DNA from: Polyodon spathula
Taxonomy: Eukaryota; Chordata; Actinopteri; Acipenseriformes; Polyodontidae
DNA: 64,000 nucleotides
Reading direction: 5' to 3'
Assembly: GCF_017654505.1 (NCBI RefSeq)
Contig: NC_054565.1
Location: 5,821,270-5,885,269 of the forward strand
Part shown: one piece after another, positions 19,846 through 63,228 of the stretch
Position numbering within the stretch: position 1 is the first letter of the stretch
How the letters are laid out: each line of letters starts with the position of its first letter
Notes under the pieces: model-generated
Told to the model about the DNA's origin: nothing
Database searches by the model: none
Seen by the model: the letters and a program-made list of their open reading frames with translations, nothing else
Position numbers and translations under genes: made by a program

Positions 19846-21303
19846 TAGAAGGGGGCACAAAGAGTTTGAAAAGCATTCTGCAAATGTTTTTTATAATGCT
19901 GTCTCGGAAGAACTGCCTTTAATTAACTGAGCACAATGACCACATTTAGAAGAACGCAAATGTTTTGAGGCTGCGGAGAGCTGAGCAGAGTCCTCGCATG
20001 CAGGTTGTGTAAGAGTCAGGATGGAACATTCATTTTAACTTCATTTTAGTTATTAAACTTGTCAAACAATGGCAGCTCAGTCCAACGGCTGTGGCTCTTA
20101 CTTGAAAAAAAATAAAACATTTAGTATCCAGACATGAGCAGTGCAGCTCAATACATTAAATACTCATCATGCTATTAAATAGTATACCAATTAGCACAAA
20201 CCTGCCTTCTAAAAAACCCTGTACAACCACATTTTACAACACTGCTACAAACTTCCACAGATAAAAACCAAATCTCATCAATCACATCTTTCTTTTACAC
20301 CCCAAACTATCAACTCTTTGTGCCTCTGTGAAGAGGGGTTAACTTTAATGTCTTCGTGCCACTAGCAGACGTTGCAGTTCCCTTCCTGTTATGCTGTGTG
20401 TTTTGCTAGTGCGGCTACAACAGTTTAGCAAGTGTCAGAACAGCATAGCAGTTAGGAGTATTATCTTTGAAAGGTGTCTTTACACAGTCATCATCTTGGT
20501 TCTTTTCATTTGGTCATTGATAAGAAGATAAAGTAATGAGGCAAGTGCAAAGTAATAACATGTTTGTCTTCATATTTCTTGCTAGTATTGCTTTACATAA
20601 GATACTGCACATGACTAACATAGTGCATGTGTGTTTTAAAAAAAAAGCAATTTTGTTGTCTACCTTAGAAATGTATTGATTAGTACATCCATGAAGCTTA
20701 GGGAAACCCTATTCTAGACGGAAAGAGAGGATAATTCAGTTTTTTTTTTTCAATAATAAAAATGAAAAGAGTATACAATTGAAAAATTATTATTCTCTTA
20801 ATAAATACATTCAATATTTCATCATCTAACATTAGTAGTGGATTTTTTAAAGCACATGTAACTGACTATTATCTGTTTATTGTTTCTCTGAATTTGCCAT
20901 TGAGAACTGATTGGCTCATGACAGGTTGTAATAGTAGATTTCAGTGCATTCTGAATTTGGAATATTAGGCTGTTAATTCTGAAAGGCTAAAAAGACAGCT
21001 TGTGTTCCTTCACAGGCAATGATACGTTATGTAGCTAGCCACACTCAGAACCAGTCAAGCTTTTAAATGTGTTAAACACAGCTTGCGAGCAGTTGATAGC
21101 AGTTGAACTATTTTCAATTTGCCAGCCCTATAGTAAGAGCTAGCCAGCATAACGGAAGACTTGCCAACAGAATTTGTTGACTGGTCTGCTTTCTTCTTTT
21201 TTTTTGTCATGATCATCAGATAAAGGCAGTGGATTGTTACTTTGAGGTTTCCTGCCTTGAAAGACCCAAGCAAAGTAAAAATACATTTTAAAAAAGAACT
21301 CAC

Positions 21304-21361
21304 CACGCATGAAGTTTGGTGTGAAGGCTGGAAAGGAGTCGAAAATGCTGTTGGACGCCAT
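21304..21361 (-). CDS. RUNX3: RUNX3 distal-promoter (P1) first coding exon
   Basis: This exon encodes the alternative N-terminus used by transcripts from the distal promoter of a RUNX (Runt-domain, core-binding factor alpha) transcription factor, a nuclear DNA-binding protein that pairs with CBFB. On the minus strand the ATG at 21,361-21,359 (GCCATGG, a strong Kozak context) opens 19 codons reading MASNSIFDSFPAFTPNFMR plus one base. A donor GTGAGT follows at 21,303-21,298. From memory, the peptide agrees with human RUNX3 P1 at about 14 of 19 positions, with RUNX1 at about 12, and less with RUNX2. The phase-1 end (G of the next codon) matches the family, where the next exon supplies the rest of an Asp or Glu codon. 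An in-frame TAA at 21,388-21,386 in the spliced leader fixes the start. The Runt domain and C-terminus are not in the window. The paralog assignment rests on 19 residues plus the LDLRAP1 neighbour. Confidence 0.9.
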
Positions 21362-21427
21362 GGCTTTTTCGAGCAAGACGATGCTTTAACCTTTTTGTGG
21401 TTTGCGCCAGTCTTGGAGAATGTTGCA
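21362..21427 (-). other. RUNX3: RUNX3 P1 5'UTR, second exon part
   Basis: This is leader sequence directly upstream of the RUNX3 start. On the minus strand it is preceded by a long pyrimidine tract (21,455-21,431) ending in TTTCTGTTTCAG, so an acceptor at 21,430-21,428 is likely and the exon would begin at 21,427. It contains an AACCACA RUNX motif at 21,402-21,396 and an in-frame TAA 24 nt before the ATG. The exon start is inferred from splice signals only. Confidence 0.65.
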
Positions 21428-21654
21428 CTGAAACAGAAATAAGAGAAAGAAAAATCCCAGAGGAAACTAAGCGCCTGTTTGTAACCAAGACTTTTGGTTT
21501 GCACTGCCACAGGAATGCTCAGCCACAAGTCTGCAAGAGAAGCATATGTTTGCAGCATCAGAAACAAAAAAAAAAAAGAAAGAAAGAAAGTAGCCACAGT
21601 AGAAGCTTGTGCAAGGCACCCGGGGATCAGAAAACAAACAGAGGCAGGACTTAC
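21428..21654 (-). other. RUNX3: inferred small intron in the RUNX3 P1 leader
   Basis: On the minus strand a consensus donor, TTCG followed by GTAAGT (21,654-21,649), and a strong acceptor (polypyrimidine tract then CAG at 21,430-21,428) bracket 227 bases. The segment also holds an A/GAAAG-rich tract at 21,567-21,590 on the plus strand. RUNX distal transcripts are known to have a mostly non-coding 5' leader. Splicing at exactly these sites is an inference. Confidence 0.55.
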
Positions 21655-21773
21655 CGAATATGGACGGGTGCACGTCTGGTGGCAAGCTGTGAAAAAAAAC
21701 GGTCCGCTGAGGTTCAGGTGCTCGTCTAACATGTAGGTTGCACCACGCTTGTGGTTCTGTGGTAGTCTGTGGG
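21655..21773 (-). other. RUNX3: RUNX3 P1 leader exon, non-coding, approximate 5' end
   Basis: This is the probable first exon of the distal transcript. Its 3' end is set by the GTAAGT donor. Its 5' end is placed at the RUNX-motif cluster because RUNX genes are known to carry such motifs at the start of the P1 leader. It contains an upstream ATG at 21,732-21,730 (weak context, T at -3). After the inferred splice this opens a 39-codon frame that stops 24 nt before the RUNX3 ATG. Confidence 0.5.
21750..21773 (-). promoter_or_regulatory. cluster of RUNX binding motifs at the P1 start
   Basis: On the minus strand there are three closely spaced motifs: CCACA (21,772-21,768), ACCACA (21,63x-21,58x of the line, i.e. 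21,763-21,758) and AACCACA (21,756-21,750), the last two 1 base apart. RUNX proteins bind TGYGGT/ACCRCA. Tandem RUNX sites at the P1 leader of RUNX1, RUNX2 and RUNX3 are known and linked to auto- and cross-regulation, so the spacing and position fit well. Confidence 0.75.
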
Positions 21774-21849
21774 GCCTGGAAAGAGTGTTAAGTCAGAATC
21801 TAGCAGCACGGCTGCAAAGTCTCCAACTTGTGCCTTGCTGACTGGAGGA

Positions 21850-32177: not shown

Positions 32178-32227
<50 letters not shown>

Positions 32228-32233
32228 GAGAGA
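32178..32233. repeat. GA microsatellite
   Basis: About 27 GA units with one C interruption near 32,220, preceded by a short TG run. Confidence 0.93.
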
Positions 32234-35000: not shown

Positions 35001-35500
35001 NNNNNNNNNNNNNNNNNNNNNNNNNNNNNNNNNNNNNNNNNNNNNNNNNNNNNNNNNNNNNNNNNNNNNNNNNNNNNNNNNNNNNNNNNNNNNNNNNNNN
35101 NNNNNNNNNNNNNNNNNNNNNNNNNNNNNNNNNNNNNNNNNNNNNNNNNNNNNNNNNNNNNNNNNNNNNNNNNNNNNNNNNNNNNNNNNNNNNNNNNNNN
35201 NNNNNNNNNNNNNNNNNNNNNNNNNNNNNNNNNNNNNNNNNNNNNNNNNNNNNNNNNNNNNNNNNNNNNNNNNNNNNNNNNNNNNNNNNNNNNNNNNNNN
35301 NNNNNNNNNNNNNNNNNNNNNNNNNNNNNNNNNNNNNNNNNNNNNNNNNNNNNNNNNNNNNNNNNNNNNNNNNNNNNNNNNNNNNNNNNNNNNNNNNNNN
35401 NNNNNNNNNNNNNNNNNNNNNNNNNNNNNNNNNNNNNNNNNNNNNNNNNNNNNNNNNNNNNNNNNNNNNNNNNNNNNNNNNNNNNNNNNNNNNNNNNNNN
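35001..35500. other. assembly gap, 500 N
   Basis: Exactly 500 unknown bases. The round length suggests a placeholder of unknown true size inserted by scaffolding. Frames translated through it are artefacts. Confidence 0.98.

Positions 35501-36275: not shown

Positions 36276-36361
<86 letters not shown>
36276..36361. repeat. CT microsatellite
   Basis: About 43 CT units. Confidence 0.95.
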
Positions 36362-58197: not shown

Positions 58198-58307
<110 letters not shown>

Positions 58308-60500
58308 GTTTAGATAAAGAACACGTTGAACTCGTTACTGAGGCTAACCCTTCACAAGCCACTCAGGGTAAATAAATGAATACACCCTTTATTAAAACAT
58401 ATTTTTTAAATTATATGACAATTAAGCTAATTACAAAACTGTTTATATGTGTGATTGGAGGGGCTAATAACTGCTTTGGGCTTGTGATTAAAAACACGAC
58501 TGTTTACTTGGCATTGGAGGTGGTCTGCCTGAGAGGCCCACATTTTTCGCTGAGTTATTGAACCTCAACTGTAAGAAAGCTTGTAACTGAGCCCCTGCTG
58601 GACTCATGAAGCCATAATGAAATTATAAAATCAGAAAAGAAGCACATTTGTATTTTCCTGTGGTGATGTAATCCCAAACGTTTTTTTTTGGTGAATAAAT
58701 GAAAGAAAACCGATTAAAAGGCCTTAACCGTTGACCTAGTTGATAAAAAGCTTTCAGCTTTGACTTCATTTTACTTTTTTTAGGTTGCATTCACTTTTAT
58801 TTACATAATCACATTTTATTTATGCCCTATGCACATTGTTTAAACTTACAGTATCACATATGAATATTTTTTTCTGAAAATTGTATGTTAACATACTTTT
58901 ATTATGCACAAGATCATTTAAAAAATAAAAAGGAACTAAACAGAAAATAAGTTCACTGTAGTGACTCTTTGGGACTTGCGTGGATAACTAGTTTCTGGTC
59001 GTCCTGACTGATGTGTCCAACCACAGATCTGCATCCGCTTGTACCCCGGGGACCTGCCCCATCTGCCAGATGTTTTCTTTCCCAAAAGCTTCAGAGCCAC
59101 TTCAGACAGACAGACTCTGTTCTAACATAGCCTGCTGCCACTGCTATCACCTGCAAAGACGTCGACTCCCATTACACGCAGCATAATGCAAGTATAAAGC
59201 CTGCTTATTCTGCCTGCATGAAAAATGCTGTACATGTGTGAAAGATCTAATACCACTACTGTACTTGGGTACTCCTAAAATAAAGTTTGATGAATAGGGA
59301 CCAGTGTGTAGCTTAAACCTATTTAAACAATCTGTGTCAAACTAACTTTTTGTCTAGCTGACACTCGTTTAGACAAAGGTGTCTTTTCAAATGCAATTAA
59401 GAAATGATTTTTAATTACGGAACCTGTATTAAATGCTGTAGTCTCCTGTTTCACCTGTTTCCTGGCGTATTAACCAGTAATGAATTGATAACTAGCTGGC
59501 TGTCAAATGAACAAAACCACACTAATACAGGCAAGAGAGGCGTTTTAAGTCAGGGGGAAAGAAAAAAACTTAATCCCTTAAACGACGGGATAAGCATGTT
59601 GGCAGTTGAATCAGAAATGCCCAAAGACATGGGAATTATCAAAAATAATTGTTGTAAGGAGGTGTGCTACTTGAACTCAGCCTTAAGCTAGCTATTACTG
59701 AACAGACAGTGACTAAGCACACACATTCATTATCTAATAAAGATAAAATGCTAATTACAGCGCGGCCTTGCTCTGTGTTTCCCCCCGCACTGTGTGTGAG
59801 TGTGCCGGAGCTGCTTTCTGTGCCACACGTCCGACCAGAACAATCTGGCAGGGCTGCAGCCAGCCTTGTTAATAAATCTGTGTCTTTAGGGCCATGGCAT
59901 CACCTCCGATTGCCGGTGGTACAAAAGCATTCCAGCGTGGTGGCTGCATTTCCCCTTTCTTAGCCTCGCTTATCCAGCTTTGCACTGCTCTTCAGAAGCA
60001 AGTCCCAGTGGTTCTCATCCTCGTCGCATTTTCAAAACTATTTACTCCAAATTTTTTCAGAAGGTTTTAAAAAAATATATCATTTTAAGTTACAAAGCTG
60101 CACTTGAAAGAGCTTTAATTCAAATGAAATTCCTGATCAGTAACGTTTAGATAAAGAACATATTGAATTCGTTACTTTTAACAGGTGTTTTTCTCATCCT
60201 TTGGTGTAAAAAGCCACACGGCAGAATCACTTTCTTTTAAAGCATTCCCTTATTGTTTTTTTTTTTAATTTTACCTGCAGCCACCGCTCTCTGCCGTGCT
60301 TTCTTTTAAAACTCTTTAATTTGGCGTGTTCATTCCTTTTTTATGAAATAGGATTCCTGTCAACGTTACTGAAGCAGAGACTCTTCCTTGTACAGGAGAC
60401 ACCCAGACACCGATTACAAGGTTACCACCGTCTCAAAAAGGAATGGCACTGCCCTTTATATGACTAATAAAGTGCAAGGCTTGCAAGCTTGTCCTAATTA

Positions 60501-61000
60501 NNNNNNNNNNNNNNNNNNNNNNNNNNNNNNNNNNNNNNNNNNNNNNNNNNNNNNNNNNNNNNNNNNNNNNNNNNNNNNNNNNNNNNNNNNNNNNNNNNNN
60601 NNNNNNNNNNNNNNNNNNNNNNNNNNNNNNNNNNNNNNNNNNNNNNNNNNNNNNNNNNNNNNNNNNNNNNNNNNNNNNNNNNNNNNNNNNNNNNNNNNNN
60701 NNNNNNNNNNNNNNNNNNNNNNNNNNNNNNNNNNNNNNNNNNNNNNNNNNNNNNNNNNNNNNNNNNNNNNNNNNNNNNNNNNNNNNNNNNNNNNNNNNNN
60801 NNNNNNNNNNNNNNNNNNNNNNNNNNNNNNNNNNNNNNNNNNNNNNNNNNNNNNNNNNNNNNNNNNNNNNNNNNNNNNNNNNNNNNNNNNNNNNNNNNNN
60901 NNNNNNNNNNNNNNNNNNNNNNNNNNNNNNNNNNNNNNNNNNNNNNNNNNNNNNNNNNNNNNNNNNNNNNNNNNNNNNNNNNNNNNNNNNNNNNNNNNNN
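60501..61000. other. assembly gap, 500 N
   Basis: Exactly 500 unknown bases, 139 nt before LDLRAP1 exon 2. It has the same round length as the first gap, so it is probably also a placeholder. LDLRAP1 exon 1 may have been lost here. Confidence 0.98.
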
Positions 61001-61139
61001 TAATACACTGGGGTCATGACGTACAGTTCCACTTAAGGTATGCATTATTTAAATAAAAAAATAAACCCAACTGTTTTTATGTATACAAAATATCTTTGCT
61101 TATAATTAAAAGCCCTTCTTCATCTTCCTCTTCCTGCAG

Positions 61140-61282
61140 AGCTTCCAGAGAACTGGTCGGACACCCGTGAGACCCTGCTGGAGGGCATGGCATTCAATCT
61201 CAAGTACCTGGGCATGACGCTGGTGGAGCAGCCCAAAGGGGAGGAGCTGTCTGCTGCTGCCGTCAAGAGGATCGTAGCCACT
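61140..61282 (+). CDS. LDLRAP1: LDLRAP1 exon 2 (start of PTB domain)
   Basis: LDLRAP1 (ARH) is a cytosolic adaptor. Its PTB domain binds the NPxY signal in the LDL-receptor tail and PI(4,5)P2, and its C-terminal part recruits clathrin and AP-2 for endocytosis. The exon follows a TTCCTCTTCCTGCAG acceptor and ends before GTGAGT at 61,283. Its 143 nt are two bases finishing a Lys/Arg codon plus 47 codons, LPENWSDTRETLLEGM through LSAAAVKRIVAT. They include the first PTB strand (FNLKYLGMTLVEQPKG) and the helix AAVKRIVAT. This part is nearly identical to human LDLRAP1 residues from about 31 to 77 (from memory), with small changes such as GMAFNL. The start phase (one base in exon 1) matches a K|LPENW junction. 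Confidence 0.97.
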
Positions 61283-61907: not shown

Positions 61908-62020
61908 GCAAAAGCCAGTGGAAAGAAACTCCAGAAGGTCACGTTAAAAGTATCTCCGAGAGGAATTATTCTATACGACAGTGCATCCAGTCAGCTAATG
62001 GAAAACATATCGATATACAG
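61908..62020 (+). CDS. LDLRAP1: LDLRAP1 exon 3 (PTB domain core)
   Basis: The exon begins after CCTTGCAG and ends before GTTTGTGT. Its 113 nt give 37 codons plus AG of an Arg codon: AKASGKKLQKVTLKVSPRG, then IILYDSASSQLMENISIY. These form the second and third PTB strands (KVTLKVSPRGIIL) and lead into the SIYRISYC strand characteristic of PTB domains of the ARH/Dab/Numb type. The loop LYDSASSQLMENI is where it differs most from what I recall of the human protein; the rest is essentially invariant. The frame joins exon 2 in phase 0 and exon 4 in phase 2 without a break. Confidence 0.97.
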
Positions 62021-63113: not shown

Positions 63114-63228
63114 GATATCCTACTGTACGGCTGATAAGATGCATGATAAAGTGTTTGCGTATATTGCACAGAGCCAGCAGAACGAAACCCTGGAATGTCA
63201 TGCCTTCCTCTGTACTAAAAGGAAAGTG
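63114..63228 (+). CDS. LDLRAP1: LDLRAP1 exon 4 (PTB domain, late strands)
   Basis: The exon starts with the G completing the Arg codon, then 38 codons: ISYCTADKMHDKVFAYIAQS, followed by QQNETLECHAFLCTKRKV, before a GTGAGT donor at 63,229. It holds PTB strands 4 to 7, including YCTADK, KVFAYIAQ and ECHAFLCTKRK. It closely matches known LDLRAP1; from memory, fish proteins also have QQNETLECHAFLC and end in KRKV. Exon 5 should open with the AQAVTLT helix that closes the PTB domain. That exon, the clathrin box and the AP-2 binding region lie right of the window. Confidence 0.97.

Follow-up and report, generated by a model that had tools for sequence, protein, structure and literature searches.

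The 64-kb window, the whole stretch of acipenseriform DNA analysed here, carries on its minus strand a short RUNX exon preceded by RUNX motifs and, at its right end on the plus strand, three exons of LDLRAP1b. The coding part of the RUNX exon (RUNX3 exon 1, P1 isoform; minus strand 21304-21361) is 58 bases long, comprising 19 codons that encode the peptide MASNSIFDSFPAFTPNFMR and the first base of the next codon. Its minus-strand letters open with AAAGCC ATG GCG TCC, in the good start context GCCATGG, and close with ATG CGT G/GTGAGT, where CGTG/GTGAGT reads as a consensus 5′ splice donor (GTGAGT, minus strand 21298-21303) that begins intron 1 in phase 1. The original prediction had described this peptide together with its strand, its coordinates 21361-21304, the 58 coding bases, the start context and the phase-1 donor, and all were confirmed in the sequence. 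Also confirmed was the run-on of the exon frame into the intron, which forms an 81-residue stop-to-stop open reading frame at 21385-21140.

The motif MAS[ND]S occurs only once across the six frames of the window, at the N terminus of the exon peptide, which fits the RUNX P1 pattern. When the window was scored by ungapped BLOSUM62 against a human RUNX3 P1 peptide, the exon site reached 79, with 31 for the next best among 127,888 positions. A RUNX2 peptide scored 41 on a RUNX2-like match at 22045-21989, against 34 on the true exon; this match contains an internal stop and was rejected.

To assign the exon to a paralogue, we searched a set of 5.8 billion proteins with a bait consisting of the window peptide followed by added residues. 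Among the matches listed (the best 120 of 190 at E <= 0.001, from 262 candidates), the first-ranked protein was P0121, a RUNX3-like isoform X1 from the beluga sturgeon Huso huso. The E-value of this match is not independent, since the bait held the window's own peptide, whereas the direct comparison is independent and gives an N terminus identical to the exon peptide at 19/19 residues. P0121 is an annotated protein of 438 residues with a Runt domain and a terminal VWRPY. After the 19-residue N terminus it continues DPTTSRRF; the codon begun by the last G of the exon permits D, its residue 20, and the window exon has a phase-1 donor, whose partner exon would lie outside the window. With the first 19 residues of P0121 as the query, tblastn on the window returned the exon at E = 3e-10 and the second-best place at 0.22. 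A search with human RUNX3 gave no bony ray-finned fish among the matches listed (the best 120 of 2602).

Both searches together supplied a comparison set of 204 RUNX proteins, with labels assigned from their listed names; 80 of these, one of them RUNX1-labelled, were without a P1 peptide by the pattern used. Across the set, P0121 at 19/19 identical residues was followed by four proteins at 15/19. RUNX1-labelled P1 peptides (n = 32) shared at most 14/19 residues with the exon peptide and RUNX2-labelled ones (n = 22) at most 9/19, so that the search against RUNX1, RUNX2 and RUNX3 isoforms that had been proposed as a check returned a RUNX3-like protein as its best match. The motif DSFP, present in the window exon and previously taken as a mark of RUNX3, proved not to be diagnostic: it is found in 3/32 RUNX1-labelled P1 peptides and in only 26/70 of the remaining group, which is mostly RUNX3 but also includes unlabelled proteins, some of which have RUNX1 or RUNX2 peptides. 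With DSFP so distributed, it is the full peptide and the linkage, and not this motif, that carry the assignment to RUNX3. In P0032, another member of the set, a RUNX1-type P1 peptide precedes a RUNX3-like body that is 84% identical to monkey RUNX3 (P0001) and 56% identical to a horse-family RUNX1 (P0128). P0032 is probably a chimeric transcript assembly, but it shows that a P1 peptide does not by itself prove which body follows it.

Upstream of the exon, 389-403 bases before the ATG, two RUNX sites lie in tandem at 21750-21764 on the minus strand (TACCACA-G-AACCACA; TACCACAGAACCACA) and, by their match to the published consensus, are predicted to belong to the P1 leader or promoter. Two papers give this consensus as (Pu/T)ACCPuCA and describe two tandem RUNX sites in the P1 5′ UTR of jawed-vertebrate Runx1-3 (PMC4236176, PMC3974841), and the second of them gives MAS(N/D)S as the start of the corresponding P1 peptides (PMC3974841). 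The pair seen here stands alone, as no other two RUNX sites lie in tandem 0-6 bases apart in the 64-kb window; first-order Markov windows contained a mean of 0.025 such pairs, and 1/40 had any. Its 16-mer ACCACAGAACCACAAG occurs once in the window and sits inside two published Runx2 primers. At up to 2 mismatches, 0.08 matches to this 16-mer are expected in the window, and 7/100 shuffles had one. Tandem (Pu/T)ACCPuCA sites are thus present upstream of the ATG, their placement in the leader rather than upstream of the start site being presumed, and from their position the P1 5′ leader and core promoter would span 21362-21780 on the minus strand, the upper limit being provisional. A further motif, AACCACA, occupies 21396-21402 on the minus strand, 35-41 bases before the ATG, and may be due to chance: the window has 63 single sites matching the loose consensus, roughly one in every kb, which makes this lone motif weak evidence. 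The RUNX motifs that the original prediction had placed upstream of the exon are borne out by the only tandem pair in the window, to which the lone AACCACA adds little.

The presumed leader also contains a candidate intron (minus strand 21654-21428) with a TCG/GTAAGT donor and CTTGCAG or TTTCAG as acceptors. An upstream open reading frame starting at 21732 overlaps the RUNX3 start if the leader is unspliced and ends before the start codon with either acceptor. Removal of a small leader intron, running from a donor after 21655 to an acceptor that precedes either 21530 or 21427, might decide whether this upstream frame overlaps the RUNX3 ATG and so place translation of the P1 isoform under the control of splicing, a proposal that we regard as unlikely.

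At the right end of the window, protein matches with splice borders read from the sequence placed three LDLRAP1b exons on the plus strand: exon 2, at the start of the PTB domain (61140-61282), exon 3 (61908-62020; 38/38 residues identical to P0205) and exon 4 (63114-63228; 39/39 residues). Together they encode most of the PTB domain (PDB 3so6, E = 6.6e-63). Over 123 residues the encoded sequence shows 100% identity with Polyodon spathula LDLRAP1b (P0205) and with three further proteins, and 98% identity with the protein of Acipenser ruthenus, which establishes the LDLRAP1 neighbour invoked in the original prediction.

We compared linkage in species for which both genes had rows among the matches listed, taking equal record length to mean the same record. 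Read by eye, LDLRAP1 and RUNX3 lay on records of equal length in 8/9 species (Amia, Lepisosteus, Xenopus tropicalis, Xenopus laevis, Mus pahari, Puntigrus, Discoglossus and Hyperolius). Xenopus laevis has one such pair on equal-length records and another pair that is not, and in Xenopus tropicalis the locus tags of the two genes are five numbers apart. In the ninth species, Hoplias malabaricus, the two records differ in length, that of RUNX3 having just 122,661 bases. LDLRAP1 and RUNX1 were on equal-length records in 0/3 species (Lepisosteus, Neoarius and Mastomys), again among the matches listed, and no species overlapped for RUNX2.

Pfam applied to all six frames of 21780-60500 yielded just four rows, every one of them below cut-off and located in simple repeats. 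As far as a domain scan and two 500-base stretches of N allow, RUNX3 and LDLRAP1 therefore seem to lie directly next to each other, head to head. The four rows, Atrophin-1 twice and DUF3915 twice, were rejected as falling below the curated cut-offs on simple repeats at 58201-58302, 32178-32233 and 36276-36361. Long pure dinucleotide and trinucleotide repeats are numerous in the window (58201-58302 and elsewhere), reaching 51 TC units, and screens of the window turned up neither a tRNA nor an Rfam family that reached its gathering score. The two runs, of exactly 500 N each, lie at round coordinates (35001-35500 and 60501-61000) and represent assembly gaps or masking.

The LDLRAP1b protein P0205 begins MASPPIAG, which matches 59894-59917 exactly, and continues ALLHLPLPAE, the tract across the exon-2 acceptor (61112-61141); this N terminus has the look of an artefactual start fused to the pyrimidine tract that precedes exon 2. 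The exact matches to P0205 make American paddlefish the likeliest source of the DNA. The 312-residue proteins P0206-P0208 and A. ruthenus LDLRAP1 begin MDALKSAGRAIIRSPSLAKQSW instead. An exon 1 encoding MDALKSAGRAIIRSPSLAKQSW was not found in the window and could lie in the second N run, 60501-61000. Judged from these sequences, the paddlefish LDLRAP1b gene model (P0205) is probably wrong at its N terminus.

Neither a motif search nor tblastn with P0121 turned up any further RUNX exon (exon 2 or Runt domain) in the window. Intron 1 should accordingly be longer than 21 kb, running left past the edge of the window (>21.3 kb), and the connection to the Runt domain is one that we infer. According to PMC533870, the whole fugu RUNX3 gene measures 36.8 kb, and an intron 1 of more than 21 kb is therefore unremarkable; the same paper describes a CLIC gene that follows RUNX genes on the complementary strand (PMC533870), and at this locus such a gene would be expected to the left of the window.

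Runt-domain exons missing from the window would also fit a degraded or silent duplicate that has become detached from a functional RUNX3, in a lineage, the acipenseriforms, with an extra genome duplication and polyploid ancestry. We consider such a duplicate very unlikely, as the peptide is unchanged relative to that of Huso huso and the start, the donor and the RUNX sites are intact. Less likely still is an assignment of the exon to RUNX1 P1: the P1 peptides of RUNX1 and RUNX3 are alike, with the best RUNX1-labelled peptide at 14/19 and three carrying DSFP, but this reading is opposed by the complete match to the sturgeon RUNX3-like protein P0121, by the CF that RUNX1-labelled peptides mostly have where the exon peptide has NF, and by the RUNX1 and LDLRAP1 records, equal in length in none of the three species. 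A chance open reading frame, for which the mere 58 coding bases could be cited, has a negligible probability and is already refuted by the 19/19 match and by the gap between the tblastn values of 3e-10 and 0.22.

The choice of RUNX3 over RUNX1 or RUNX2 made in the original prediction is instead supported by the 19/19 match to P0121, the P1-type tandem RUNX pair and the linkage to LDLRAP1. We conclude with high confidence that 21361-21304 is the first exon of the RUNX3 P1 (distal-promoter) transcript of an acipenseriform fish, which would be transcribed leftward and spliced to Runt-domain exons, with regulation by RUNX proposed. Transcription would start near the tandem RUNX sites at ~21750-21764 and proceed to the left along the minus strand. 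The 19-residue N terminus would then be spliced in phase 1, over the intron of more than 21 kb, to a partner exon left of the window that would encode DPTTSRRFTPPS and lead into the Runt domain, and P1 splicing would bypass the proximal (P2) start. The tandem sites are probably bound by RUNX proteins, which would thereby tune P1 output through auto- or cross-regulation.

This is an ordinary, long-known RUNX3 P1 exon, belonging to one of the two promoters of the gene, and nothing new in kind. Its presence identifies the 64-kb window as the interval between RUNX3 and LDLRAP1 in an acipenseriform fish. A first exon so short is easily overlooked by gene finders, yet it is a known feature. Among the matches listed for RUNX3 in sturgeon, no paper was on fish RUNX3 as judged by title, and no paper was found in the literature on runx3 and ldlrap1 in teleosts.

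The closest known counterpart is the RUNX3 P1 first exon represented by P0121 of Huso huso, which has the same 19 residues and a next residue, D, that fits the junction, leaving the coding part without difference. As described for jawed-vertebrate P1 promoters, tandem RUNX sites lie upstream. Both fit the consensus here, and PMC3974841 reports the tandem sites of fugu and zebrafish Runx1 and Runx3 as less conserved; this suggests that the tandem P1 RUNX sites have been kept in a non-teleost ray-finned fish. A start in MAS(N/D)S and RUNX motifs ahead of the ATG are common to the RUNX1 P1 first exon and the exon described here. The human RUNX1 leader has three such motifs according to PMC4762634, which also describes RUNX sites of human RUNX1 P1 being mutated in a reporter to test auto-regulation, and three lie here in the 403 bases that precede the ATG. 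RUNX1 differs in matching at most 14/19 residues and in having no equal-length LDLRAP1 record in the three species. The RUNX2 P1 first exon shares the MASNS start and, within the Runx2 primers, ACCACAGAACCACAAG; it differs in matching at most 9/19 residues. Against those primers, the first tandem site here is TACCACA where they have AACCACA, and TACCACA is still within the consensus published in PMC4236176.
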